64,000 nt of DNA, from positions 1 through 64,000 of IMG/VR virus record IMGVR_UViG_3300032313_001394. One strand, written 5' to 3'. The translations under genes were made by a program, and so were the position numbers. Every line of letters starts with the position of its first letter. The stretch's first letter is position 1. Shown here piece by piece: positions 19,663 through 51,707 of this stretch. The notes beneath the pieces were generated by a model. The model searched no databases. It saw nothing but the letters and a program-made list of their open reading frames with translations, and was not told the origin of the DNA. Source of the DNA: a virus.

Positions 19663-21339
19663 TTAGTATCCTAATGTTTCTAATCCATGTACCAATACTT
19701 TACCATAGAATTCAGGACGAACCATTTTCTTAGCGTAACGAGTCATCAAACCTTTACGTGGAGTAAATGTTTCTGGATCGTATACTAATGGAGTCATGAT
19801 CAACGGAATGTATGGAGCATATACAGCACCAGTCTCAAGGAATTGAGATCCTTTGTAACCCATCAAGATTACGTTAGAAGTCAAATATGGGTTCTTGTAA
19901 ACTTTGTAACGAGAGTTTAATGAACCTATTTTCTGAATACCGAAGTTGAATTCTGATTTCTCACCATCACCGTCAGTAGCAAATCCTGGAATTGATTCTA
20001 ATACTGTAGCTACAGATGGAGAAACAACTAAGAAATTAGCACCACCACGTAATGTTTTCTGGTGAATAGTGTTAGATACTTTTTGCAATACAGTACCAAT
20101 AGTTTGGAACCATTCGCCTTGAGAGTTGTAGTATCCAGTCAAGTTTCCAGATTGAGAGTTAGCAGATACAGTTGTAAAGCCATTTCCGTTCCAGAATGTG
20201 TTATTAGCAGCTGACCAGTAACCAGTAGTAGCAGCATTTTCGATCAACATACCCAACAATTCTAAATCTACTTCCATTGCGATGTAGTTAGAGATCATTG
20301 AAGTTACTTCTGATTCAGCATCTACTGAGTGGTAAGCGTTCAAATCTTGAGCAAATTCTGGAGTCCATTGAGCTTTCAACTTACGAGTTTTAGCAACGAT
20401 AGCTTCAGATTTCAATTTAATATCAACTGAAGGGATAGCAATTTGAGTTGTTGACTCAGAGTTTGGATAACCAGCACCTGAAGCATCTTCGAAATCACCA
20501 CGAGCAGCAACAGTAGTTACTTTAGGGTAAGTTACGTTGTAAACTTGGTTAGCATTAGCACCAATTGTTGAACCAGAAACAATAAATACAATTGTACCGT
20601 CAGCGTTTAAAGTAGTAAATTCATTGATTATGTTAGCAGCTGATACTGAAGCAGCACCAGAACCTGAAGTGAATTCAATAGCTTTAACAGCGTTATCATC
20701 TAATCCTACTAAAGTACCTGAGGCGAAAGTAATAGTACGAGCTGAAGAACCGATTGAAGCTGAAGCAGCTGAATTGTAATTGAAAGAAGCGATTGAAGTT
20801 GATCCAGAAGTACCAGTAATACCTGCAGAAGCAGTAGTATTAATAGAATATCCGTAACGACCCTCACCATATAAACCACCAGCTACGTCTAAATTCTTAA
20901 CGTTTGGATGATTTTCAGCTTGGTTACCATAGATAGAAGCAGTTCCAAATCCAGCCTTACCTGAAGTTGAACCCATTCCTAAGTTAGAATATTTGAAGTC
21001 TAAGTAAAATACTAGACCAGAAGGTAAAGACATTGGTTGTACGGAAACGAATTCCTTAGCAACGATCTCACCAAACACACGGCGAACTAACGGTAAAGCA
21101 ACACCAGCCCAGTTTTCACCGGCTCCACCTGACATAGATGTAGTACCACCTGTTACGTTAGCTTCTTGAACTAATGAACGAGCTTGATTTTCTAAAATAA
21201 CAGACATGTTATTTTTGTCATACTCGTTAGATAGGTTTTTCAATAAACCTGTTTTTTCCCACTTAGAAACTAAGCGTCCTGCTTCGTTTTGACGATCCGT
21301 CCATGGGTTTGCGCTTTCTAAAAGACTTTGTACGTTCAT
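19663..21339 (-). CDS. Major capsid protein, gp23-like
   Basis: Protein of 558 residues (T4 gp23 has 521). The N-terminus resembles gp23 (LLESANPWTDRQNEAGRLVS). A prohead protease site, LVQE|A, lies at residues 56-60 and is followed by a Gly/Ser-rich stretch and WAGVALPLVRRVFGE. This matches T4, where cleavage removes about 65 residues at LTE|A. Other signatures are FYLDFKYSN near residue 110 and AQWTPEFAQDL. An inserted Ala/Ser/Gly-rich region lies at about 170-260. It is co-transcribed with the scaffold gene upstream and ends at a strong terminator. Confidence 0.95.
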   Translation of the reverse strand: MNVQSLLESANPWTDRQNEAGRLVSKWEKTGLLKNLSNEYDKNNMSVILENQARSLVQEANVTGGTTSMSGGAGENWAGVALPLVRRVFGEIVAKEFVSVQPMSLPSGLVFYLDFKYSNLGMGSTSGKAGFGTASIYGNQAENHPNVKNLDVAGGLYGEGRYGYSINTTASAGITGTSGSTSIASFNYNSAASASIGSSARTITFASGTLVGLDDNAVKAIEFTSGSGAASVSAANIINEFTTLNADGTIVFIVSGSTIGANANQVYNVTYPKVTTVAARGDFEDASGAGYPNSESTTQIAIPSVDIKLKSEAIVAKTRKLKAQWTPEFAQDLNAYHSVDAESEVTSMISNYIAMEVDLELLGMLIENAATTGYWSAANNTFWNGNGFTTVSANSQSGNLTGYYNSQGEWFQTIGTVLQKVSNTIHQKTLRGGANFLVVSPSVATVLESIPGFATDGDGEKSEFNFGIQKIGSLNSRYKVYKNPYLTSNVILMGYKGSQFLETGAVYAPYIPLIMTPLVYDPETFTPRKGLMTRYAKKMVRPEFYGKVLVHGLETLGY

Positions 21340-21367: not shown

Positions 21368-22405
21368 TTATTTTAATCCCGCTAGTTTAGCCCAACGGTC
21401 TACTTGTGCATCTGAATCAATTACTTTATTTCTAGTAGTTGAACCAGCAATAATTCCTGATGCTTTTGATGCAAATCCTAAAGATTCTTTAATAGTTGAT
21501 TTTTCTACTTCTTTTTTAGCTAATGTAGTGCTTAAAGATTCGAATACCAATTTAGCTTCTTTAGCAGATTCAGCTTTGTCAAATGTTTTAACAACTTGAA
21601 TCTTTTGCGATTCTGTTAAGTTATGTCCTTTGAATACTTTATTCATGTATAATAACTTAGCATTTAATAAATTTGATTCTTGAAGTGACGAACGAAGTTC
21701 TTCGATTGTAGCTAAAGCTTGAGCTAATTCTTCTTCCATTTTAGATTTAGAATTATCTTCTTCTTTGCCATAATCTTCTTCTACTTCTTCTTCTTCTGAT
21801 AACCCGAATTCAGCCAATAATTCATCGATGTTGATATCGTCTTCAGTAATTTCTGCGTCGATATTTTCTTCCATTTTCTTATCTTCGTCTTCATCTTTCA
21901 TTTCATCTAAGTTGATTTCTTCTTCATCAGCTGGCATTTCTTCAGTATCAATTCCTAAGTCTTCACCTTCTTCACCTGGTAATTCCTCACCTTGTTCAGT
22001 TTCTAACTTTTCGAATTCTTCAGCAGCAATTTGACGAATATAATCTTCAACTTCTTCAGGTGTCATTTCAGTGATATCTTTATCTTCTTCTTCTTCACCT
22101 GCTTTTTCTTCACCTGCTTCTTCTTTAGCAGGAGCTTCATCTTCACCTGCTTTTTCTTCATCATCCGCTTCAGCTAATAATGCTTCTAAGTCAAGTGTTT
22201 CTTCCATTGAATCTTCGGCAATGTTTTCATACGCTTCGTCTTCATCTTTATCTTCTTCTAATTCATTTAACTTTGCAGCTAAAATAGATTGAAGTTGAGG
22301 AGTGAAAGCTTCTTCGAGAACTAATCTAGCTTGCGCTAATGCAGTCTCGCGTAAAGTTTTTGCTTCAGCAATGGCATCTTTTAAAGTTTGATTACCTTTA
22401 CTCAT
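21368..22405 (-). CDS. Prohead core scaffold, gp22-like
   Basis: Protein of 345 residues, extremely acidic between about 45 and 230 (runs of Glu/Asp) and helical on both sides. That is the usual character of T4-type core scaffolds next to the capsid gene. The N-terminus has TLKDAIAEAKTLRETALA and several [LI]xE sites for the prohead protease. The C-terminus is DRWAKLAGLK, a tag shared with two other proteins here. It likely forms the core on which gp23 assembles and is degraded by gp21. AAGGA lies upstream of the ATG, one of the few Shine-Dalgarno-like sites. Confidence 0.85.
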   Translation of the reverse strand: MSKGNQTLKDAIAEAKTLRETALAQARLVLEEAFTPQLQSILAAKLNELEEDKDEDEAYENIAEDSMEETLDLEALLAEADDEEKAGEDEAPAKEEAGEEKAGEEEEDKDITEMTPEEVEDYIRQIAAEEFEKLETEQGEELPGEEGEDLGIDTEEMPADEEEINLDEMKDEDEDKKMEENIDAEITEDDINIDELLAEFGLSEEEEVEEDYGKEEDNSKSKMEEELAQALATIEELRSSLQESNLLNAKLLYMNKVFKGHNLTESQKIQVVKTFDKAESAKEAKLVFESLSTTLAKKEVEKSTIKESLGFASKASGIIAGSTTRNKVIDSDAQVDRWAKLAGLK

Positions 22406-22604: not shown

Positions 22605-23204
22605 TTATTTAATTCCAGCGTAGTGTTGCCATCTGCTGATTGTCCATTCGTCTAATCCTTTTGGTTTATTTAATTCATCATAGAATGCTCTTGCTTTATT
22701 TTCCGAATCAAATACTTTTTCTTCAGTGCCATACTTAACAATCCAAAAACGACCTTCTGGTTCAATACTAGATAGTTCATTATGACCTAAATTAGCTTCA
22801 TCCATTTCTTCAGCACCGGCTTTATCATCCATTTGAGCATCTGATTCATGATATCCTTTAGCTGCTTGATAAATGTAGCTTTCTGCATTAGTAATATGAT
22901 CTTGAATCCAAGCTGGTAGGTTAATTTCTTTATCTCCCATTTGAGCTTTTAACATCATAGCAGAACGAATAATAGCATCTAATGAATCTTGTGCCATTGC
23001 CACTTCGTAATCTTCGTTTAAACCATCTTCAGCTAATTTTTTAGCTTTATCAGTAGCAATTGCGTACATAGCAGGAGCAGGACCTTTAAAATTCTTCTTC
23101 ATTGCTTTAACAATTTCCTCACGTTTTTTTTCTTCAGCAGCTGTTAATTCTTTTTCAGCAACAATTTTAGCTACGGTTTCTTTTACGATTTGTTCTAAGT
23201 TCAT
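22605..23204 (-). CDS. Prohead core protein with C-terminal RWxxYAG tag
   Basis: Protein of 199 residues. The N-terminus (MNLEQIVKETVAKIVAEKEL) is an amphipathic leader like those on other candidates for prohead packaging. Next is a Lys/Glu-rich helix, and the C-terminal part (WIVKYGTEEKVFDSENKAR) looks like a small alpha/beta fold. The protein ends SRWQHYAGIK, matching the ends of the scaffold and of the winged-helix protein at 32274. It overlaps the protease gene (TAATG). An inner core role is inferred from location, leader and tag; I do not recognise a named family. Confidence 0.65.
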   Translation of the reverse strand: MNLEQIVKETVAKIVAEKELTAAEEKKREEIVKAMKKNFKGPAPAMYAIATDKAKKLAEDGLNEDYEVAMAQDSLDAIIRSAMMLKAQMGDKEINLPAWIQDHITNAESYIYQAAKGYHESDAQMDDKAGAEEMDEANLGHNELSSIEPEGRFWIVKYGTEEKVFDSENKARAFYDELNKPKGLDEWTISRWQHYAGIK

Positions 23205-23833
23205 TATATATTATCAAAATCACAGGTACAGAATCCTGTGCGGTTACAAATAATTTCAGTAATTAAGCTATCTATTTTAGAATAGTCTTTTGATGGTTTA
23301 GAGTATGAAATAGATTCATTTACTACTTCCATATATGCACCTGGTGTAGATGGAGTTGAAACGAAATCCCAACACATTAATTCAAAATCGTCTTGTACCT
23401 CAATTGTTTCACCAATTTGACGTACAGAACCCATACCACGAGATGAGATACCTACGGTGATATTGTTGTTAAATAATGCTTTTAATATATTACCTGATGG
23501 AGTATTTAGTATTTCAATTTTACCATATAAATCTTTACCTTGCCAACTTAAAGCAACAATATTATGTGATACATTCTTTAAATTAATAACAGGAGAATCG
23601 GGATGATCTAATTCACCTAATGCACGACGTTCTTTAACTGGTCCTTCTAAGTATTTATCAGCTTCACGTCTTAATACTTCGTAAGGATAGACACGTCCAT
23701 TACCATTTTTAGTTTCAGCCTTTTGTATCAAACCTTCAACAAACATTTTACCGTTAGGATTTTGCATCGACTCCTTCAATGATTGAGGAGTGGCGGTAAA
23801 TAATGCTGTTTCTATTAATAATTGCTTATCCAT
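23204..23833 (-). CDS. Prohead core protease, gp21-like
   Basis: Protein of 209 residues (T4 gp21 has 212). It belongs to the S77/herpes-assemblin-like protease group. RVYPYEVL near 47-54, GELDHP with the likely catalytic His at 77, and VGISSRG with the likely catalytic Ser at 130 or 131 are in the order and spacing of the family. The enzyme matures capsid and core proteins at [LI]xE sites. It sits between two core genes with TAATG overlaps on both sides, which would fix stoichiometry. Confidence 0.9.
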   Translation of the reverse strand: MDKQLLIETALFTATPQSLKESMQNPNGKMFVEGLIQKAETKNGNGRVYPYEVLRREADKYLEGPVKERRALGELDHPDSPVINLKNVSHNIVALSWQGKDLYGKIEILNTPSGNILKALFNNNITVGISSRGMGSVRQIGETIEVQDDFELMCWDFVSTPSTPGAYMEVVNESISYSKPSKDYSKIDSLITEIICNRTGFCTCDFDNI

Positions 23834-25866: not shown

Positions 25867-27702
25867 TTATATATCCTTAATATTTGATTCATCTAATATT
25901 GAAGGTTCAGCCATAGCGTTGACTTTCTTGAATTTAATTTCTTCAAGCATCTTCTTATTTTTTAAATATTCAATTTCAGATGTTTGGTTTTCTAAAGTCC
26001 ATGTAGCCCCAGATCCAGGAGATGATTTTAAAGGCTCATGCATGCCTTTAGAACCAATAGGATCTCTACCTAATGCATGATCTTGTGTTCCATAATCAGA
26101 TGCTTTTTCTTTAGGACGACCAACTTCTTTTTCATCATATCCAATAGGTACTTCACCATAACGACCTTTACCATATAATGAAGCTAAATCATGTGGCGTA
26201 CCAAATGATGTACCTGATTCAACTGGATCATTACCTTCATTTTCGATTTGTGAGAATCTAAATGAACGTTTTTTATCTTCAATTACTTGATTTCTATATT
26301 CTGAATATTCGTCTTCTGAGAAATTAAATATGTTATGGTATATATAATCTGAAGGTAATAAATTTTTATCTAAAATACTATTAGATAATTCAATTTTTTC
26401 TTTTAATAGAGCAATTTTTTCTTGTTCGTAAATGATTGATGGTGTAGTTAATGATAATTCAAAGTTAGTTAATTCAGCATTATCGAATCCTTGAGTATAT
26501 AAGTGAACTAATGCAATTTTTGTTAGTTCTGAAACTATAATACGTTGGATACGTTCTACAGTACGAGCAAAACGAATATCTTCAGATGCTAGAGTTGCTT
26601 TACCTGTTAAATCTTTTTCAAAACCCATAAATGCTTTTGGAACACGTAAAGCAGCAAATAATTTATCACGTAAGTAAGTTACGTCTTCGATTGCTGTGTA
26701 TTCTAAGCCTTTTAATGTATCGATTTTTGTTGTTGAATCATTACCTCTAAGCGGAATAAAGAAATCTTCCGTTAGATTCATCATATTGTATTTTAAATTA
26801 TAGTCACCTGTAGCTGGGTCAACATAAGGAACTTTTTTAATACGTTGTTTCATTTTCTCCATATAAGGATCTACCTCATTAGGAGCAATATTTCCAATGT
26901 TTGTATAGAAAATACGTTTTTCTGGAGCACGCATAATACGATGAATTAACATCGCATCCTCCATTAAAGTTAATTGCTTGAATATTTTACGACCTGGTTC
27001 AAGATATGAACGTCCATAAGGTAAATATGATGGATCAGCTAATAATCTAAAGTGAGCTATTTCGTAGTTTTCGAAATAATCATCTCGTTCTGTATTTGTA
27101 GCATATCCATAAGATTGATTCATATTAATTTTGAATCTTACATATGATGGATTAGCTGGATTTGTTCCTTCTTCACGTTGAACATCATATACAGAAAATG
27201 GCATTACATTATACACACCATACTTTTCAGCAATATCTAGATGTAAATAAAAGTCACCATACTTACACATTGTTCTAATCCATGACCATAAATTAAATTC
27301 TACATTTAATACTTCATAGAATAAATTATATAGAACACGTTGTAATTTAGCATTCGGGGATTTAATATGTAATACTTCACCCTGCTCATTTTTTAAAGTA
27401 GCTTCATCAGCTATAATATCTAAAGCAGAAGCAATGATCGCATCCGTATCCATTGCTTCATAATCAGTATATAAAGAAGTACGTAATGTTTGATAATTCA
27501 TTAATGGCGTATAAGCCAATCTTGAATTACCTGCATGTATTCTGTTGAATCTGTCAATTAATGAATTCGTCTGAATATTGCCATATGATTGTAAACGGTC
27601 AACATCAATTACTCTTAATTGATCCCCTCCTACATTCCTAATAACAACATCAGTGGAAAATAACCTTCTTAATCGTCCGAAAAGACTAGTATCTATCGCC
27701 AT
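25867..27702 (-). CDS. Portal protein, gp20-like
   Basis: Protein of 611 residues (T4 gp20 has 524), forming the dodecameric DNA entry ring. Signatures include ALDIIADEATLKNEQGEVL, WIRTMCKYGDFYLHLDI, LPYGRSYLEPGRKIFKQLTL, MLIHRIMRAPEKRIFYTNIG and LRVPKAFMGFEKDLTGKATL, all conserved in T4-type portals. The C-terminal 120 residues are hydrophilic and less conserved. It is monocistronic by map, with class 1 elements on either side. Confidence 0.95.
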   Translation of the reverse strand: MAIDTSLFGRLRRLFSTDVVIRNVGGDQLRVIDVDRLQSYGNIQTNSLIDRFNRIHAGNSRLAYTPLMNYQTLRTSLYTDYEAMDTDAIIASALDIIADEATLKNEQGEVLHIKSPNAKLQRVLYNLFYEVLNVEFNLWSWIRTMCKYGDFYLHLDIAEKYGVYNVMPFSVYDVQREEGTNPANPSYVRFKINMNQSYGYATNTERDDYFENYEIAHFRLLADPSYLPYGRSYLEPGRKIFKQLTLMEDAMLIHRIMRAPEKRIFYTNIGNIAPNEVDPYMEKMKQRIKKVPYVDPATGDYNLKYNMMNLTEDFFIPLRGNDSTTKIDTLKGLEYTAIEDVTYLRDKLFAALRVPKAFMGFEKDLTGKATLASEDIRFARTVERIQRIIVSELTKIALVHLYTQGFDNAELTNFELSLTTPSIIYEQEKIALLKEKIELSNSILDKNLLPSDYIYHNIFNFSEDEYSEYRNQVIEDKKRSFRFSQIENEGNDPVESGTSFGTPHDLASLYGKGRYGEVPIGYDEKEVGRPKEKASDYGTQDHALGRDPIGSKGMHEPLKSSPGSGATWTLENQTSEIEYLKNKKMLEEIKFKKVNAMAEPSILDESNIKDI

Positions 27703-27756: not shown

Positions 27757-29331
27757 CTACAATAACCAATTTAGATCATGATTGTTTCCATATCCGTCCT
27801 TCATTTCCCAAGGATTTGTAGGTAAATAACTTTGGTTATTTACTGATGTAGAAGAAATTGATAATGAATTTAAAGTTGCTTTAGTCATATCCATACCATT
27901 TTGATGGTAAACTAATGCGGTATCCCTGACGTATAACCCAAATGATAGAGCTAATACTAAGTCGTCGTTATATCCACCTTGAGCTTGAGCTTTGCCGTTT
28001 TCCCAAATGAATGTTCTTAATTCTTCGATTGTACGTTTTGATTGAACTACAAATTGACGTTCGCGTAATGATGTTTCTAATTTAGAAATAAATAACGGTC
28101 GTGTACGAGTTGAGTTAGTAATACCTTGAACAGTTTGATCATTTTCCATTCTAGATACAAAATTATCTATAGACATATCTGTTCCTTTTGGAGAATAATA
28201 TACATTCTGATATCCAGTATCAGCTATTGTATTTAAAACATCCCAACCTAAAGTTGCGTTTTCAACTACAAGTAATGCATTATTATATTCTGTTGCTGCT
28301 GTTACTAATAAACGTCCGAACTCTCGAGTTCCAATTTTAGATTTAAATTCAGCTACTTGTCTAAATTCTTTAGTAGCTATTATATGAAAAGTTGAATAAT
28401 CACTTCCATCTCCACGAGCAACGTCAGCACTTACTATATATGTTTCTGTTGGATTAGCGTATTCATAAATCCAATAATCACCTCCCATACCACGTCTTTC
28501 AACAGGATCTATTACATATGTTTTTTCATAAAATTCAATTATATCATTTGTAATAACATTATTACCAGAAGCTAAAAAGTCACACTCATATTCTTGAGCA
28601 ATCTCTCTAGGATTCATATTTTGTTTTTCACGATCAAACCATACTTCATCACGTTCAGGATGCACATCCCAAGGTAATTTAATTGGAACAAAATCGTTTT
28701 CTGAATTTAAAGCAGATACCCAAGTTTTATGGAACCAATTACCTACACCATTTGGTGAAGATAAAGCAATACACCCACCACCTGTTGAAATAGTAGGTTT
28801 AATACTTGTATATATTTTATCAATCCCATCAATAAAAGCAGCCTCATCAATTAATAATAATGAAACAGCATATGAACGACCTGCATCTCCCGCAGCTGAT
28901 GATGCTACAATCTGAGATCCGTTTGATAATTTTAATGATAATTTATTATTTGAATCTGGTTTTTGATTACCTTTAAGCCATCCTGGTAATTGTTGATACA
29001 TAAATTGTACCTTATCTACCATGTTTACGGCTGTAGTTTGTTTGGTTGCAATACAGAGTACAGTTTTATCTTTATGAAACAACATTGTCCATAATGAAAA
29101 ACCAGCAGCTAATGTTGATATACCTAATTGACGTGATTTGTTAATAATTGAATAATCGTGTTTTAACCACAATTTCAATACTTTTTCTTGGAATGGATAT
29201 AGATTAAAATTTACTCGACCTCTTGTAGGGTGTTGAACCATACAATATTTTTTCATAAAATGAATTGGATCTTGTAAGCACTTTATATATTCTTGACGGA
29301 TTATATCCTTTATATTCTGTTGATCGCTCAT
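27757..29331 (-). CDS. Terminase large subunit, gp17-like
   Basis: Protein of 524 residues (T4 gp17 has 610). It carries the packaging ATPase and headful nuclease. The Walker A position reads SRQLGISTLAA (66-76), lacking the usual Lys of GKT after the Gly. The conserved Arg/Gln pair upstream is present. Walker B is LLLIDEAAF (159-167, Asp162-Glu163). The RNase H-like nuclease starts at VSADVARGDGSDYS (Asp302), with LVVENATLG and NDDLVLALSF carrying the later acidic residues. It overlaps the lipase gene by ATGA. No small terminase is visible nearby. Confidence 0.95.
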   Translation of the reverse strand: MSDQQNIKDIIRQEYIKCLQDPIHFMKKYCMVQHPTRGRVNFNLYPFQEKVLKLWLKHDYSIINKSRQLGISTLAAGFSLWTMLFHKDKTVLCIATKQTTAVNMVDKVQFMYQQLPGWLKGNQKPDSNNKLSLKLSNGSQIVASSAAGDAGRSYAVSLLLIDEAAFIDGIDKIYTSIKPTISTGGGCIALSSPNGVGNWFHKTWVSALNSENDFVPIKLPWDVHPERDEVWFDREKQNMNPREIAQEYECDFLASGNNVITNDIIEFYEKTYVIDPVERRGMGGDYWIYEYANPTETYIVSADVARGDGSDYSTFHIIATKEFRQVAEFKSKIGTREFGRLLVTAATEYNNALLVVENATLGWDVLNTIADTGYQNVYYSPKGTDMSIDNFVSRMENDQTVQGITNSTRTRPLFISKLETSLRERQFVVQSKRTIEELRTFIWENGKAQAQGGYNDDLVLALSFGLYVRDTALVYHQNGMDMTKATLNSLSISSTSVNNQSYLPTNPWEMKDGYGNNHDLNWLL

Positions 29332-32273: not shown

Positions 32274-32804
32274 TTATAATAAACCAGCTAGCTTATTCCA
32301 TCGAGATTCATTAATCGGTTCTTCTGAAGTTATTTCAGCAAGTTCTGATTCAGATATTGATGTTGCAGCATTATATAATTGAGTAATAAAATCAATTTCT
32401 TCAGGTGTAAAATCTGTTTCACCTTTAGCGAATTTTCTTAAAGCACCACCACCTAACATTTTAATTTCATCATTAGTTACTTTTGGACGACCTTTAATAC
32501 CAGGAGCATTAATTGTAGTTTTAACCATTTTAGGAGCAACTAATCCAGTATCAGCAATAATACCTGCTTGTTTTAAACCTTTAACTAATTGATTAACACT
32601 AGCAGTATCTGGACGACCATAAAGAGCCATTGCTACATCTTTCAAAGTAGCTGATCCATTATCTTTTAAAAATGCAATAATTTTTTGCATACGAGTTGAT
32701 GACCTAATATTTTCAGGTTGAGCAGCTAATGCAGCTTCATAATCATCAGCTAATTTTAATCCACTAGCTATACGTGCTAATTCTTCAATGTTATTGGTTT
32801 CCAT
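32274..32804 (-). CDS. Winged-helix protein with C-terminal RWNKLAGLL tag
   Basis: Protein of 176 residues. About 38-88 (MQKIIAFLKDNGSATLKDVA, then VNQLVKGLKQAGII) reads as a winged helix-turn-helix. A KGRPK hook-like stretch follows near 128. The C-terminal part has SESELAE and then the final SRWNKLAGLL, nearly the same ending as the prohead scaffold and the 22605 protein. It may be a DNA-binding protein taken into the prohead, or a late regulator. It overlaps the upstream small gene by 14 bases. Confidence 0.65.
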   Translation of the reverse strand: METNNIEELARIASGLKLADDYEAALAAQPENIRSSTRMQKIIAFLKDNGSATLKDVAMALYGRPDTASVNQLVKGLKQAGIIADTGLVAPKMVKTTINAPGIKGRPKVTNDEIKMLGGGALRKFAKGETDFTPEEIDFITQLYNAATSISESELAEITSEEPINESRWNKLAGLL

Positions 32805-41619: not shown

Positions 41620-43522
41620 TAAATGTTGTTTTAAAACCTAATAATTTAGCATATCTTGGTAAACGACATGACCAATAAGATGCTTTAGTTCTATCTTTTT
41701 TATTCTTACAATCATGACGAGCAGCAAAGGCACGACGTGCTTGGGGATTATTTAATTTAGCTCTTAATCCAGTTGTATCACCAAATGATACTTTTTTAAC
41801 TCCACCACCTGGTTTACGAACATAAACATAGAATTTTTTAGATCCACCACGTTTTGGTTTTCCAATTGGAGGTGTTTTCTTTTTATCGGCTTCAGATACT
41901 AATTCTTCTTCAATTAAAATATAATCAAACGGAAGTTCCATTCCTTTATATTTAAATGTTTCTCCAATATTTGATTCTAATATCTCAACATCATCTTCAG
42001 TTACTGAAAGTAATCCTTTGTTATATAATTCACGGGCTTCATTAAATAAAGCAAAATATTGTTCAGATAAAGGACGATATATATTATGAATTAATTGTTT
42101 GCCTTCAGCAATATGATATTTTAATCCTTCAGATAATATAGGTATATCTTGTCCTTCTTTTAATATTAATTTAGGACCGTTACAACCACAATCTTCATTT
42201 AAATTAGCTCCAATATCGTTTACATCTTGATATGCAAATTTATTCATCGGTTCGATAGTGCCTAAAATTACTTGTGGATTTATACCTTTTGCTCTAGCAA
42301 CCATTAAACGAGTATTACCACCTACTAAATAGTATTTATTCGGAGAATATTGGAGAATCAACGCAGGAGGTGTTTTTTCAGCGGCTAATATGCTTTGAAT
42401 ATCTTTACCGTAATGGCGCGCTAATTCTATCGCTTCTTCTTCAGAATTTATATCGTATGAGTCGGTATTTTCTAAACGACTCCACATTTCATCTGTTAAA
42501 GTAACTTCTTTACCATTAACAAATGAATTATATACTACATCATAAGGTAAACCTAATTCTCCAGCTGTACGTTCGATTTCCTCATTTTCAGCTTTTATAA
42601 TTGGTTCCCATCCTAATGGATTAATATCTTCTCTAAAACGTACTTTTGCTTTATCTGTATTTGGAACTACACGATCGCCTTTACGATCAGCAGCTGCTTT
42701 TTTACGAGCAGTAGCAGCACGTTCTTCTTTAGATAATGAATTTGCTTTAGCACGAGGCAAACAACGAGTTGTTGCTTGTCCTTTTTTCATTGTACCACAA
42801 GGCCCAGTTATGTTACCTGCTGTATCAATACGAACCCAATCTTCTTTTCTAAACCAATCACGTAGTGATTCATCTAAATTAATTAATTTATCTGAGTTTA
42901 ATATTTTAACTTTTATATTTTTATTAGCTGCTAAACTAGCATATAGTCTAGTTCTTCCACCAACTACATATAGAGTTCCATTTATATCAATTAATACAGG
43001 AGGTTCATAATTTCCTGTTGTTACTTGATCATATAAACTACCAATATCATATCCTCTTTGTCTATTACTATCATTTGAATCTCTTTTAGTCATTAAATCT
43101 ATATATCCTTGTCTTGGATTCTGAGATTTACTGATTTTGATTATATCTGTTATAAGAGATTCTTCACCAGATTTATTATTAAAATTTTTAAGTTTTGTTA
43201 CTTGAGATGGAGAAATATTAGTTGCAGGTGTTTTTTCAATAATAGGTATTAATTTATTAACAGATTCTTCATCATATTTAAATCCAGCATTTTTTACTAT
43301 TTTAGATATATTTAGATCTTTTTGACCTACTAATTCCCATGCTTCATCCTCACTTCCTTCTTCCATCAATCCTTTACATACCTTAACAGCACGACCAGAT
43401 AAATAAGCTGATGGTACTTCACCAGCAGCTATACGTCTATTATAATAAGCTTTACCCTTAGGACAAAGCTTTTTTTCCATTATAACATTCTCAATTATAG
43501 ATTTTATTTTATTTAAATCCAT
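41606..43522 (-). CDS. Mosaic protein with two ParB-like modules and protease sites
   Basis: Protein of 638 residues. It starts with the leader MDLNKIKSIIENVIMEK, then a Cys/basic block (about 20-51). ParB-like module 1 (about 165-208) has VVGGRTRLYA, and module 2 (about 385-422) has LVGGNTRLMVARA. A DUF6321-like block lies between them (about 219-285, with WVRIDTAGNITGPCGTMKKG). ILSE|G (462-466), HIAE|G (470-474) and LVSE|A (541-545) fit the prohead protease. The C-terminus (from about 562) matches, from memory, the DUF5872 block (VYVRKPGGGVKKVSFGD, ending RLPRYAKLLGF). The protein may be processed in the prohead into several pieces. Confidence 0.65.
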   Translation of the reverse strand: MDLNKIKSIIENVIMEKKLCPKGKAYYNRRIAAGEVPSAYLSGRAVKVCKGLMEEGSEDEAWELVGQKDLNISKIVKNAGFKYDEESVNKLIPIIEKTPATNISPSQVTKLKNFNNKSGEESLITDIIKISKSQNPRQGYIDLMTKRDSNDSNRQRGYDIGSLYDQVTTGNYEPPVLIDINGTLYVVGGRTRLYASLAANKNIKVKILNSDKLINLDESLRDWFRKEDWVRIDTAGNITGPCGTMKKGQATTRCLPRAKANSLSKEERAATARKKAAADRKGDRVVPNTDKAKVRFREDINPLGWEPIIKAENEEIERTAGELGLPYDVVYNSFVNGKEVTLTDEMWSRLENTDSYDINSEEEAIELARHYGKDIQSILAAEKTPPALILQYSPNKYYLVGGNTRLMVARAKGINPQVILGTIEPMNKFAYQDVNDIGANLNEDCGCNGPKLILKEGQDIPILSEGLKYHIAEGKQLIHNIYRPLSEQYFALFNEARELYNKGLLSVTEDDVEILESNIGETFKYKGMELPFDYILIEEELVSEADKKKTPPIGKPKRGGSKKFYVYVRKPGGGVKKVSFGDTTGLRAKLNNPQARRAFAARHDCKNKKDRTKASYWSCRLPRYAKLLGFKTTFSGFW

Positions 43523-43766
43523 TTTCTTCTTGTTTTGGCAAAAACCAGTTAGAACACCATTTTGAAGGATCTTTTATCTGATTTCCATCATTATCAACTA
43601 ATTCAGCAGTACCCATATGTTCTTGATAATTCGTACTTGAACACATATGTTTGTCGTCTTGTTTGTAGTAGAATTTACATACGTGACATCCAAATCCTAC
43701 AGGCGAGTACATATAAGGAGGAGATACCTCAGATACTTCACTTAATATATTGATTAATTTAATCAT
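43509..43766 (-). CDS. Small Cys-rich protein with capsid-targeting-like leader
   Basis: Protein of 85 residues. The leader MIKLINILSE|V is very close to those of the genes at 44561 and 45892. The body has four cysteines (GCHVCKFYY, then HMCSSTN and KWCSNWF), giving a CxxC plus two distant Cys pattern, suggestive of a zinc or iron-sulfur site. The start overlaps the upstream stop (TAATG). Function unknown; the packaged small metal protein idea is inference. Confidence 0.6.
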   Translation of the reverse strand: MIKLINILSEVSEVSPPYMYSPVGFGCHVCKFYYKQDDKHMCSSTNYQEHMGTAELVDNDGNQIKDPSKWCSNWFLPKQEENGFK

Positions 43767-43969
43767 TATTTACCTTTATTTTTTATCTTATAATATATTT
43801 GTACCCCGAGCCATCCAATAGATAGGATGTAAAATAGACCAGTAAGTACAGGATTTAACATAGAAAAAAAGCTATTAAGTAGTGCAATGCACGTTGTTGC
43901 TACTCCGGCAGCATTTAGCTCAGCTGATTGATGCATTTTATTAAGAAGGGATAAAAATGTTATACTCAT
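43766..43969 (-). CDS. Small membrane protein, possible holin
   Basis: Protein of 67 residues with two likely membrane helices (about 19-37 and 40-60) and a basic tail (YYKIKNKGK). This is the size and topology of a class II holin, but there is no endolysin next to it. The ATG lies inside a class 1 element, implying a nearly leaderless transcript or a different use of the element here. Confidence 0.55.
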   Translation of the reverse strand: MSITFLSLLNKMHQSAELNAAGVATTCIALLNSFFSMLNPVLTGLFYILSIGWLGVQIYYKIKNKGK

Positions 43970-43974
43970 AAATA
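43967..43974 (-). promoter_or_regulatory. Class 1-like element containing the start codon
   Basis: The coding strand reads TTAATATTTATGAGTA, where the last ATG is the start codon of the 67-residue membrane protein. If this is a promoter it cannot serve that gene by a normal leader. Confidence 0.4.
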
Positions 43975-44559
43975 TTAACTATTTAATTTAGCACGTGATT
44001 CTTTTACGTCTTTCATTACTTGTTCGCGTATTTTCTGTTTATCTAAAGCTTTAACATGCCAATCTTCAATATCACCTTGTTCAGTTACAAATCCAGTTGA
44101 ATCGAATGAATTCATATAATCTTCAAATCCGTTTTCAAATTCATTTAAAGTAAAATTAGCATTATTTTTCATTATATTTAATGCATATTCTTTCCATTTT
44201 CCTTCTATTTTTAATTGAGTTTCTTTTTTTATAACACAATTAAAACAAGTACTATGAATATGAAACATTTTCTTATCATACTCTGTTTTCATAGGTGTAT
44301 TACATTCCGGACAAAGAAGTGGCATAAAAGCATATGATTTTGCTCTATCTAATTTAGACACACTAATTCGGACACCGTTTTTGATTGTCCAAGATTTACC
44401 GTTTTCTTCCCATATTTCACCTTCTTTACGTTCAATATGTTTACGAGAATATCCTACTTGAGTTTGAGTAGCATCATGGTAATTACCGGATACTAAATTA
44501 CGAATTCGCTTTATATCTTTTTCAGTGAATTCTTTTTGTAATAATGTTTCTTTTGCCAT
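43975..44559 (-). CDS. Conserved phage protein with zinc-finger-like site
   Basis: Protein of 194 residues starting MAKETLLQKEFTEKDIKRIR. It has EGEIWEENGKSWTIKNGVRI, then CPECNTPM and HSTCFNC, a four-Cys zinc-ribbon-like arrangement with a basic linker. The C-terminus is a helical tail. Related proteins occur in many T4-like phages; a DNA- or RNA-binding role is possible. It ends the operon beginning at 47300. Confidence 0.65.
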   Translation of the reverse strand: MAKETLLQKEFTEKDIKRIRNLVSGNYHDATQTQVGYSRKHIERKEGEIWEENGKSWTIKNGVRISVSKLDRAKSYAFMPLLCPECNTPMKTEYDKKMFHIHSTCFNCVIKKETQLKIEGKWKEYALNIMKNNANFTLNEFENGFEDYMNSFDSTGFVTEQGDIEDWHVKALDKQKIREQVMKDVKESRAKLNS

Positions 44560-44560
44560 T

Positions 44561-45892
44561 TTATAACCCTAGTTTTTGTAATTGTTTTATTGTTGATTCT
44601 GTAGATGTATGACGGATACCAATTCCACCAGCATCTATCCATTGTTGGATATTATCTTTTCTATCATCAATCAATATTGCATTTGGTTCTGCTAGATCTT
44701 TTTTATCTTTTGCTTGTTTAAATACAATGGATGTACCTGGTATATTATTATCTACCCATTCTTGTTTACCTATTTCAGATGATTTTTCACGTGATGGAGC
44801 AGTTAATAATTTAGGATTATATTGTTTAATATAATTCCATAATTGTTGTCCATCAGACATCCAATTTAAATCAGCCCAAAATTTAGATCCTGCTTTAGTA
44901 ATTGCAGACCAAAAATCATTTTTATCATATGTTGAATCAACACCAGGTGTTTGCTTGCCTGTTAAATCATTATATCCACGTTCAAAATCAACTAATACAC
45001 CATCCATATCACAATATACTTTATATTGTTGTTCGCCTTCATTTAATTTAGAAGATTGATTATTAAATGATTTTACTTTAGATATAAGTTCAGGTTCAGA
45101 TAAAACAGAATCTTTAATTTTTTTATCTATAGTAATAAATTCACGTTCTAATTGAGATACTAATTGTTTAAATAGTTCTCTTGATTTTTCTGTTGCTTTA
45201 TCTTTTTTAGCTTGTTCTTCAGGTGATAAAGGCGAATCTTGTGTTTTACGGAAAGTAGATACAAATTGTTCTGGATTCTGAGATGTTAATTCTTCTAACC
45301 ATTCATATAATTTTCCTTGTTGAACTGCTTGATTAAATTCTTCTATTTCTTTTTTGTACTCATCATCTGGTGCTTGATATAATACAAAATTATCACCTAA
45401 TTTATTTTTATAAGCATCAATATTACCGTATACATTATTCCATGTTGATATAACACCTATTTTAGGTACTTTACGCTCACGTTTAAAATTTCTTAAAAAT
45501 GATACAATTGGGTGAGCATACACCATAATCATTAATGTATCATAATTAGAAGCAGCATTTAATAATCCTGGTGTTTCTTTACGTTTATATGTTCCTCCAA
45601 GTAATTTAGCTGCATTAGATGCTGTTGTGTCCCAAATAAATGATTTACCTGATAAAAGAGTATTAGGTACATCAACATCATCTACTTGAATAGAAGCTGC
45701 TGATAAATTATTAAACATTGGACTTGCTTTATCTTCAATGTATTTATCAGGATTAATTATTTCAAAACCAGGTGTTAATCCTTTAATTTTATCTATTAAA
45801 GTAGATTTACCAACTCCAGCACCCCCAGCTAAAATTATCATTTTATTTTGAGGTGAAATAATTTCTTGTAGTATATCAAATAATTTTATCAT
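44561..45892 (-). CDS. P-loop kinase fused to HAD phosphatase, with leader
   Basis: Protein of 443 residues. It starts with the leader MIKLFDILQE, then a kinase domain with Walker A GGAGVGKST (23-31) and INPDKYIED. A helical linker follows (about 180-290), with SSKLNE|GEQ just before the second domain, and then a HAD domain with CDMDGVLVDF (Asp295 and Asp297 as nucleophile and acid/base). LLTAPSREKS and ILIDDRKDN carry the later HAD residues. The order kinase-phosphatase is that of T4 polynucleotide kinase, but the sequences look like zeta-toxin-like kinase and 5'-deoxynucleotidase-like HAD. DNA/RNA end repair or nucleotide salvage are alternatives. Confidence 0.75.
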   Translation of the reverse strand: MIKLFDILQEIISPQNKMIILAGGAGVGKSTLIDKIKGLTPGFEIINPDKYIEDKASPMFNNLSAASIQVDDVDVPNTLLSGKSFIWDTTASNAAKLLGGTYKRKETPGLLNAASNYDTLMIMVYAHPIVSFLRNFKRERKVPKIGVISTWNNVYGNIDAYKNKLGDNFVLYQAPDDEYKKEIEEFNQAVQQGKLYEWLEELTSQNPEQFVSTFRKTQDSPLSPEEQAKKDKATEKSRELFKQLVSQLEREFITIDKKIKDSVLSEPELISKVKSFNNQSSKLNEGEQQYKVYCDMDGVLVDFERGYNDLTGKQTPGVDSTYDKNDFWSAITKAGSKFWADLNWMSDGQQLWNYIKQYNPKLLTAPSREKSSEIGKQEWVDNNIPGTSIVFKQAKDKKDLAEPNAILIDDRKDNIQQWIDAGGIGIRHTSTESTIKQLQKLGL

Positions 45893-46425
45893 TATTTTTT
45901 AAATGAACGCTTAATGTTTGATTTTGATGAAGTATTTGGTTTTCTTAGATAAACATGGTTATTAGAATCTTTTGTATAACTCCAATCAGATAAATTTCTT
46001 TCAACGTATGCTTTATATAATTTTTCTCTACCTTGATCCGATGGACCTGATTTTACAGGTTCGTATACTATCTCTACTACTTCAGGATGTTGTGAAACAT
46101 AATCTTTTAGTATTTTAGTGACAGTAGCCATTATTCTATATTGTTCTCCTCTATTAGTATCTAAAGTAGTATACTCTTCATTTCCAACTTTATTACCAAA
46201 TACTACCCCCAAATAATATTCATTTTTTGATTTGGATTGAGGTACATCATATTTATCCATTAAACCAGTATAAAGTTCAACAATATATGTATTATTCCCT
46301 ATTTCAAATTCATAGTTTATAGTCTTTTCATCTTTAGTTGAATTTAGTGATTCACCAGTTTTATTATATGGTACACTTAATGTAGCATCACCAATTTCAG
46401 ACAGTATATCAAATAATTTTATCAT
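45892..46425 (-). CDS. Leader-bearing protein, unknown
   Basis: Protein of 177 residues starting MIKLFDILSEIGDATLSVPY, where the first ten residues equal the leader of the next gene but for one residue. The body is alpha/beta (INYEFEIGNNTYIVELYTG, then YYLGVVFGNK and TVTKILKDYVSQHPEVVEIV). It ends in a basic tail (SSKSNIKRSFKK). TAATG and ATGA overlaps join it to both neighbours. No motif is recognised. Confidence 0.6.
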   Translation of the reverse strand: MIKLFDILSEIGDATLSVPYNKTGESLNSTKDEKTINYEFEIGNNTYIVELYTGLMDKYDVPQSKSKNEYYLGVVFGNKVGNEEYTTLDTNRGEQYRIMATVTKILKDYVSQHPEVVEIVYEPVKSGPSDQGREKLYKAYVERNLSDWSYTKDSNNHVYLRKPNTSSKSNIKRSFKK

Positions 46426-47300
46426 CTTACTATAAACATTTCAGGTCGCATTTGAGCGAAATTTCTCATCATAATAGCGGCGGCAGCATTAGCTTCATTT
46501 TCATGAGCATGTCCTGTTTTACCGGATTCTGGTGTTAATCTATTTTGTATATCTTGTTTATAATGAACTAACTCATGTGCTAATGTTCTAAAAACATCAG
46601 CTTGATGACGATTAGCTACACTTAATTCAATACTTTTATTGTTTGGATCGTATCCACCAAATGAACGTCTTGATTCTGCATTTGTAGGATCATATGACAT
46701 TTTTAATGGAGGTAATGATTTTAATTTTAAATATTCTCTGCAGTATCCAACAAATTCTTTTAATAATGGGAATTGATCTTCATATATTGGATGCTCATTT
46801 AATGAGTTTTTATTTTTTTCATACGTTCTAGTAAATGCATCAAAAAATTCTCTTGTTGAAACCCCATCAGGTAAAAATTTAGCTACTTGTTTTATATTAC
46901 GAGCTTGAATAGCATCTCTAAAGTCAGTTGCTGATATATTTTCAAAATTACCAGCGTCAAATATCTCAACTTTGGGATTGTCAGCTAATGAAGCAAAACG
47001 TGAACTTTCTTCTTTACCAAATGCAACTACAAAATCTTGATCAGGATTATTTTTAATCGATGATAATGTATAATATACAGGAGAGCCTTCAGATGATATA
47101 ACTTTAACTTTAGGACCTAATAAATTAGTATATAACGCCCAAATATCTAATGATTGATCTGCTGAAACTCCACCACGTTCTTTTGAAGAAACAGCAACAA
47201 CCACCTCAGAAATATCATCTCTATCAATTAATAGTTTAACTACTTGGAAATGACCTTTATGAGGTGGTTTAAACGCGCCTGGGTAAATTGCTATTTTCAT
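46422..47300 (-). CDS. Nucleotidyltransferase fused to HExxH metallopeptidase-like domain
   Basis: Protein of 292 residues. The N-terminal part is a cytidylyltransferase-like nucleotidyltransferase: YPGAFKPPHKGH with the HxGH site at 14-17, and ISATDFRDAI (122-131) in place of the ISSTxxR motif, as in NMN or phosphopantetheine adenylyltransferases. The C-terminal part (about 180-292) has TLAHELVHYKQD (His242, Glu243, His246) and a likely third ligand in HENEANAAA (Glu267 or Glu269), a gluzincin-like site. I know of no such standard fusion. The head has no leader. A class 1 element lies 26 bases upstream. Confidence 0.8.
   Translation of the reverse strand: MKIAIYPGAFKPPHKGHFQVVKLLIDRDDISEVVVAVSSKERGGVSADQSLDIWALYTNLLGPKVKVISSEGSPVYYTLSSIKNNPDQDFVVAFGKEESSRFASLADNPKVEIFDAGNFENISATDFRDAIQARNIKQVAKFLPDGVSTREFFDAFTRTYEKNKNSLNEHPIYEDQFPLLKEFVGYCREYLKLKSLPPLKMSYDPTNAESRRSFGGYDPNNKSIELSVANRHQADVFRTLAHELVHYKQDIQNRLTPESGKTGHAHENEANAAAAIMMRNFAQMRPEMFIVR

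Positions 47301-49871: not shown

Positions 49872-51707
<1,836 letters not shown>

Follow-up and report, generated by a model that had tools for sequence, protein, structure and literature searches.

A kinase–nucleotidase fusion with a predicted capsid-targeting leader in a virus record with T4-type head genes

In the internal protein IPIII of phage T4, the first ten residues suffice as a capsid-targeting sequence (CTS), with positions 4 and 7 serving targeting and positions 8 and 10 serving processing (PMC9026906). The T4 head protein gp24 is processed by gp21, and T4 Alt has a second, internal cut site at LTE-619 (PMC5694885). Reviewing the work of Black, his colleagues proposed that T4-like phages can package varied proteins by means of the CTS (PMC9026906). 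The accessible part of a virion proteomics report on Klebsiella phage describes packaged enzymes and names no zeta homolog (PMC13119998). A coliphage kinase related to the one described below, RB43ORF241c, figures in one paper as no more than a weak match to Pfam (PMC1524935). A search of the open-access literature retrieved no description of the leader class reported here, and none in which a kinase from this family is packaged. To our knowledge, the polynucleotide kinase of T4 (PseT/Pnkp) is not known as a packaged protein in T4.

Here, we describe a gene found in a window of 64,000 nucleotides, which is part of a 139,243-base IMG/VR virus record. Its product joins a P-loop kinase to a 5'(3')-nucleotidase of the HAD type behind a 10-residue leader. 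Sequence comparison suggests that it is probably a head cargo enzyme, which the prohead protease would process and which would enter the host together with the DNA.

Domain layout and genome context

The features of the fusion gene and its surroundings are listed in Table 1. The ORF, the leader MIKLFDILQE, the Walker A motif, the LNE↓G site, and the HAD motif were all present as an earlier note on this DNA had described, HAD motif I being CDMDGVL at residues 294–300. That note had named the loss of catalytic residues as a ground against its own reading; such a loss was not seen, and the catalytic residues were conserved in both the kinase (Walker A, D49, D88, and R138/R140) and the HAD (D295, D297, and D409/D410).

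Table 1 Features of the fusion gene and of related genes in the window (↓, cut position)
Feature	Position	Strand	Evidence or remark
Leader–kinase–HAD fusion ORF	44561..45892	(-)	ATG start, 443 aa
Leader MIKLFDILQE, putative CTS; cut predicted after E10	45863..45892	(-)	conservation, AF2, codons, T4 comparison
P-loop kinase domain, PNK/zeta-like, about residues 15–222	45227..45850	(-)	profiles, AF2, Foldseek
Walker A GGAGVGKST, residues 23–31	45800..45826	(-)	invariant G/K residues
INPDKY, catalytic Asp motif	45740..45757	(-)	aligned to T4 PseT INRDDY
WDTTASN motif	45614..45634	(-)	D88, T90 invariant
RNFKRERK lid arginines	45470..45493	(-)	R138, R140 invariant
Helical kinase–HAD linker, residues 223–282	45047..45226	(-)	AF2 helices 224–262, 266–278
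LNE↓G, residues 283–286, predicted interdomain prohead-protease site	45035..45046	(-)	recurrence at HAD junctions
HAD 5'(3')-nucleotidase domain, residues 286–443	44564..45037	(-)	profiles, AF2 model
Neighbour ORF, 177 aa, leader MIKLFDILSE	45892..46425	(-)	weak DUF6934 match
Neighbour ORF, 85 aa, leader MIKLINILSE	43509..43766	(-)	strict leader pattern
HxGH nucleotidyltransferase (NMNAT/PPAT-like) + putative metallopeptidase	46422..47300	(-)	no leader; conserved together with kinase and HAD
gp21-type prohead protease, starts MDKQLLIE↓T	23204..23833	(-)	phrog_207, E 3.9e-54
gp23-type major capsid protein	19663..21339	(-)	phrog_138, E 3.4e-71
Portal	25867-27702	(-)	T4-type head gene
Large terminase	27757-29331	(-)	T4-type head gene

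Alignment of the kinase with 18 relatives indicated that the P-loop glycines and lysine, D49, D88, T90, R138, R140, T150, and W151 are invariant, and the motifs of the T4 Pnkp family (GxxGxGKS/T, the catalytic Asp, and the lid arginines) were found. A profile search of the PDB matched PezT (1.4e-4), Pnkp1 (9.5e-4), zeta (4e-3), and T4 PNK (0.03). A PDB search from the single sequence gave weak or chance matches only. When the Foldseek matches were aligned with VIA-align, Clostridium thermocellum Pnkp ranked highest, with a Z of 12.3 and an rmsd of 3.6 over 160 residues; phosphoseryl-tRNA kinase and others tied with it to within 1 Z. The hhalign comparison with T4 PseT gave a probability of 86% over 137 columns. 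The PDB profiles, VIA-align, and the alignment to PseT thus support a zeta/PNK-like kinase, in line with the zeta-like kinase of the earlier note. The score against PF06414 (zeta toxin) was 15.2 bits, below the curated Pfam cut-off of 22.3. No cellular relative was found by tblastn in genome contigs, a pattern-seeded scan that is weak evidence of absence.

The HAD matched phrog_2643 (E 4.5e-30) and, among PDB profiles, mitochondrial 5'(3')-deoxyribonucleotidase (E 8e-7). In the AF2 model of the whole protein, the HAD was covered by 5 of the 18 alignment rows and was poorly modelled; it was modelled alone instead, with a pLDDT of 91 and a deoxyribonucleotidase-like protein as the top Foldseek match. 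The sequence contains the motifs of NT5C-type HADs: DxDGV/L (motif I), Thr/Ser (motif II), Lys (motif III), and DD (motif IV). The domain is NT5C-like and a predicted 5'(3')-nucleotidase, in agreement with the earlier description, on the evidence of phrog_2643, the deoxyribonucleotidase profile, and the AF2 model. Membership in the Pnkp 3'-phosphatase family was not supported, since hhalign aligned the HAD with the PseT phosphatase at a probability of only 5% over an 18-residue motif-IV stretch and NT5C proteins were matched instead. Hence, the claim that the domain order equals that of T4 polynucleotide kinase holds for the order of the folds and for the alignable kinase, but not for the HAD, which shows no kinship outside those 18 residues.

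The T4-type head genes lie on the same strand as the fusion gene, and LVQE59↓A60 of the capsid protein aligns with the T4 gp23 cut FLTE↓A. The closest cultured relative identified from the DNA of the capsid region was Flavobacterium phage immuto; a Bacteroidota host is therefore likely. The kinase, the HxGH enzyme, and the HAD are separate neighbouring genes in four related loci (L033, L019, L037, and L023). A nucleotidyltransferase–HAD fusion was found in L008, L011, L017, L049, and most of L112–L124, and a kinase–HAD fusion in the window and in L001, L006, L012, and L014, with a second kinase subfamily joined to a nearly identical HAD in L012 and L014. Kinase, cytidyltransferase, and HAD occur within one stretch in Pelagibacter phage HTVC008M. 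Fusions of this family carry two to three enzyme domains per chain. Because the three enzymes fuse in varied combinations, the gene arrangements suggest one pathway.

Several other features of the region were observed. The nucleotidyltransferase is separated from the metallopeptidase-like part by a conserved SLNEH stretch (window 46422-47300; L049:4864-6543). A C-terminal tag, RWxKLAG(L/I)K, occurs on several otherwise unrelated proteins, among them the likely scaffold (window 21368-22405, 22605-23204, and 32274-32804; record 119957-120238; weaker at 79757-80374); the scaffold-like protein of immuto ends in SRWQKLAGIIK, and the tag may serve for docking on the scaffold or capsid. Amphipathic N-termini of the form LxxLIRxxIxEIL recur on head-region ORFs (window 22605, 24345, 30153, 40309, and 62848) and may be another head-targeting type. 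A long Thr-Ala/Thr-Pro repeat protein beside the gene cluster (window 49872-51707) is probably a fibre-like structural protein.

The leader and the interdomain site

K3, L4, and E10 of the leader were invariant in kinases that are only ~30% identical, across two kinase subfamilies, and the leader pattern was present in 25 further kinases. The strict pattern, M(x0-4)K[LI]xx[LIV][LIVM]xE, was found at 3 of the 462 ORF starts of the record, all three inside 43509-46425. In related loci, kinases and stand-alone HADs carried the leader, and so did many small unrelated proteins. It occurred in 9 of 92 protein families of these loci versus 0.04 expected from the internal rate (p 3e-19), a low count because the families were built by single linkage, which merged the fusion proteins into one family of 148. 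The K, L, and E codons of the leader differ synonymously and the DNA upstream is not conserved; therefore, selection acts on the peptide. The same codon variation and unrelated upstream DNA counter an origin of the likeness from duplicated gene starts. In the AF2 model, residues 1–10 were detached from the rest of the protein (pLDDT about 39). Against the predicted cut, the residue after E10 is Ile and the P1' position is broad across the leader set (A, N, I, S, and Q), although T4 Alt is cut at ITE↓L.

MIKLFDILQE and the T4 leader MKTYQEFIAE both have hydrophobic residues at positions 4, 7, and 8 and Glu at position 10. When the strict pattern was run on T4, one annotated start was matched, that of gp24 (MAKINELLRE↓S). 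The T4-type pattern matched only IPI, IPII, IPIII, and gp61.1 in T4, and had no match in immuto or in this record. T4 gp61.1 (L067 18966-19130) starts with the CTS-like MKTFKEFIKED and may be a further packaged protein. In immuto, a second leader-like N-terminus, (F/N)DLKKFLVENKLT-NS, was observed on at least four proteins (L053 13807, 27632, and 28633; L054 1803).

Kinases homologous to that of the fusion protein were identified in T4-family phages (profile comparison 95%, E 2e-8); in total, 255 phage records, mostly of the T4 family, contained one. The N-termini read in T4-family kinases were T4-type CTSs: MKSFKDFVSLDEA in RB16, MKSFKQFTESTLTEA in KP27, MTLKSFKEFITLDEA in Mm5, and MKKFSEFIKLEEK in Aeromonas phage 65. 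The same enzyme thus bears the leader of its own phage's type, and these lineage-matched leaders are the strongest and most telling test for the capsid-targeting reading. Together with conservation, the T4 CTS register, and the gp24 match, they support the earlier proposal that the leader is a capsid-targeting peptide, and we regard its prediction as a CTS as well supported. In RB16, KP27, and Mm5, the kinase gene is followed by a nucleotidase gene, near hoc.

Two unusual family members were also observed. ORF187 of Tenacibaculum phage PTm1 (L163:391-2232), whose leader is MKLFETINE↓S, has an apparent intein-like insert inside the kinase Walker A (GGAG-C...SGN-SGKGF). ORF331 of Vibrio phage nt-1 (L164:1456-2901) matches the kinase family without a recognisable Walker A and may be a dead relative.

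A lone LNE↓G between the domains was rejected as evidence, as 13.6% of 16-residue windows contain [LI]xE by chance; only recurrence counts. [LI]xE occurred within 16 residues before the HAD at 9 of 9 non-redundant junctions with different upstream domains, giving p 1.6e-8, a value that overstates independence because the nine junctions share ancestry in part. This recurrence supports the protease-like site noticed earlier, and a cut there is predicted. HAD homologs of XacN1, Atu_ph07, Phosso, Cr30, phiXF1, and Mm5 have no residues ahead of the first strand, and those of immuto, Melnitz, and HTVC008M have about 12–18 extra N-terminal residues ending in [LIV]xE. The recurrent junction site is most simply read as a cut site that derives from the end of a leader, retained from a time when the HAD gene stood alone.

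Proposed delivery and alternative readings

We propose the following model by summarizing the above results. The first ten residues would dock the protein on the prohead scaffold core, and the gp21-type protease would remove them after E10, probably with a second cut at LNE285↓G. The kinase and the 5'(3')-nucleotidase, fully separated or still loosely connected, would arrive in the next host along with the DNA. They would then work immediately on nucleotides or RNA ends, in concert with the adenylyltransferase-like enzyme encoded nearby. Packaging, both cuts, and delivery are steps that we infer. The substrate is the weakest step: we favour RNA or nucleotide 5'-OH/5'-phosphate chemistry, with confidence slightly short of even, over NAD-precursor chemistry, which we consider rather unlikely. 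The counter-nuclease role suggested in the earlier note is possible but unsupported and is speculation.

The leader could also be a helix that docks the enzymes to a cytoplasmic complex, such as the replication or RNA-processing machinery, in which case the enzymes would be intracellular, metabolic, and never packaged. Such a role would suit a gene that adjoins primase and exonuclease genes and not head genes, partners that lack the leader (the nucleotidyltransferase here and the HAD in T4-family phages), and the retention by T4 of its own polynucleotide kinase in the cell. However, the leader ends in a gp21-type consensus and fits both the gp24 propeptide and the CTS register, and homologous T4-family kinases bear T4-type CTSs; we therefore consider cytoplasmic docking quite unlikely. 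Injection is shared by a further reading, that the kinase is a toxin-like phosphotransferase of the zeta/PezT type disturbing cell-wall precursors or another host target. PezT and zeta were among the best sequence and Foldseek matches, but the folds of polynucleotide kinases and tRNA kinases score no worse, and the fact that a nucleotidase always accompanies the kinase suggests nucleotide chemistry, making a toxin very unlikely.

Two further readings concern what the packaged enzymes would do. True T4 Pnkp-like end-healing, delivered early, would repair tRNA or RNA cut by host anticodon nucleases. The shared domain order, the alignment of the kinase with PseT, and the first place of C. thermocellum Pnkp in VIA-align are consistent with this, but the HAD is NT5C-like and barely touches the PseT phosphatase. 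Furthermore, no match to either of two RNA ligase families (RNA_ligase and RtcB) was found in the 139 kb record, which may be incomplete; an end-repair role is weakened by this result, not excluded, and in this strict form we judge it unlikely. Alternatively, the enzymes may form a packaged NAD+ salvage or repair route, in which the kinase acts on nicotinamide riboside, the HxGH enzyme adenylylates NMN, and the HAD acts on NMN or 5'-nucleotides, restoring NAD+ after an NADase defence. The HxGH enzyme is closest to NMNAT and PPAT among solved structures, the three enzymes are syntenic and fused in differing combinations, and NadR-type NTase–kinase enzymes are known from phages (PMC7824862, PMC9503650). 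However, the HxGH domain fits PPAT as well as NMNAT, and the 60 PDB profile matches listed for the kinase include PezT, Pnkp1, zeta, and T4 PNK but no nicotinamide riboside kinase. In addition, no HxGH enzyme is annotated beside the kinase–HAD pair in the T4-family neighbourhoods examined. NAD+ salvage is rather unlikely on these grounds.

Beyond this locus, we tentatively suggest, as a possibility that is far from assured, a large, so far unrecognised class of aquatic (Bacteroidota-type) phages in which a KLxxLLxE leader loads a set of unrelated enzymes into the head. Among these would be the kinase/adenylyltransferase/nucleotidase trio, delivered as protease-cut polyproteins that would mend damaged nucleotides or remove nucleotide signals within minutes of entry; T4-family phages would have a cognate version tagged with their own CTS. 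If true, a ten-residue motif would be enough to predict, from sequence only, which proteins many uncultured phages probably inject. An enzyme family kept from T4-family coliphages to Bacteroidota phages would then be a candidate early-infection effector. As the homologous gene is present in coliphages RB16 and RB43, which can be grown on laboratory E. coli, its virion presence, the cut after Glu, and the kinase substrate are directly testable.

Comparison with known systems

The fusion protein resembles T4 PseT/Pnkp in its kinase–HAD order and alignable kinase domain, but differs in its NT5C-group HAD and added leader. Zeta and PezT kinases match its P-loop kinase weakly in sequence and fold, whereas the kinase here is paired with a nucleotidase and an HxGH enzyme, and no antitoxin partner was noticed. 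The 'zeta toxin' ORF of RB43/RB16 is a homologous kinase that is likewise followed by a nucleotidase gene, but it is unfused and carries a T4-type CTS. Polyvalent proteins of phages are also multi-enzyme proteins, some with a metallopeptidase, and predicted to be packaged and injected; the proteins here are small and predicted to be cut by the head protease, and leader-based targeting is not described for polyvalent proteins in the accessible part of their report (PMC5512222).

The gp24 propeptide matches the strict leader pattern exactly, but gp24 is a shell protein and not an ejected enzyme. T4 IPI, IPII, IPIII, and Alt (Mullaney and Black; reviewed in PMC9026906 and PMC3012670) share with this locus a leader of ~10 residues with hydrophobic positions 4, 7, and 8 and E10, an encoded gp21-type protease, and the use of one leader on unrelated proteins; Alt, too, is a packaged enzyme, packaging here being predicted from sequence. 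The leader here reads K-L-x-D-[LI]-[LI]-x-E, unlike the K-T-Y-Q-E-F-I-A-E of T4, and the cargo is a kinase and a nucleotidase with an extra predicted cut between the enzyme domains. These comparisons place the fusion with the T4-type internal (ejected) proteins, as a variant whose packaging is predicted.
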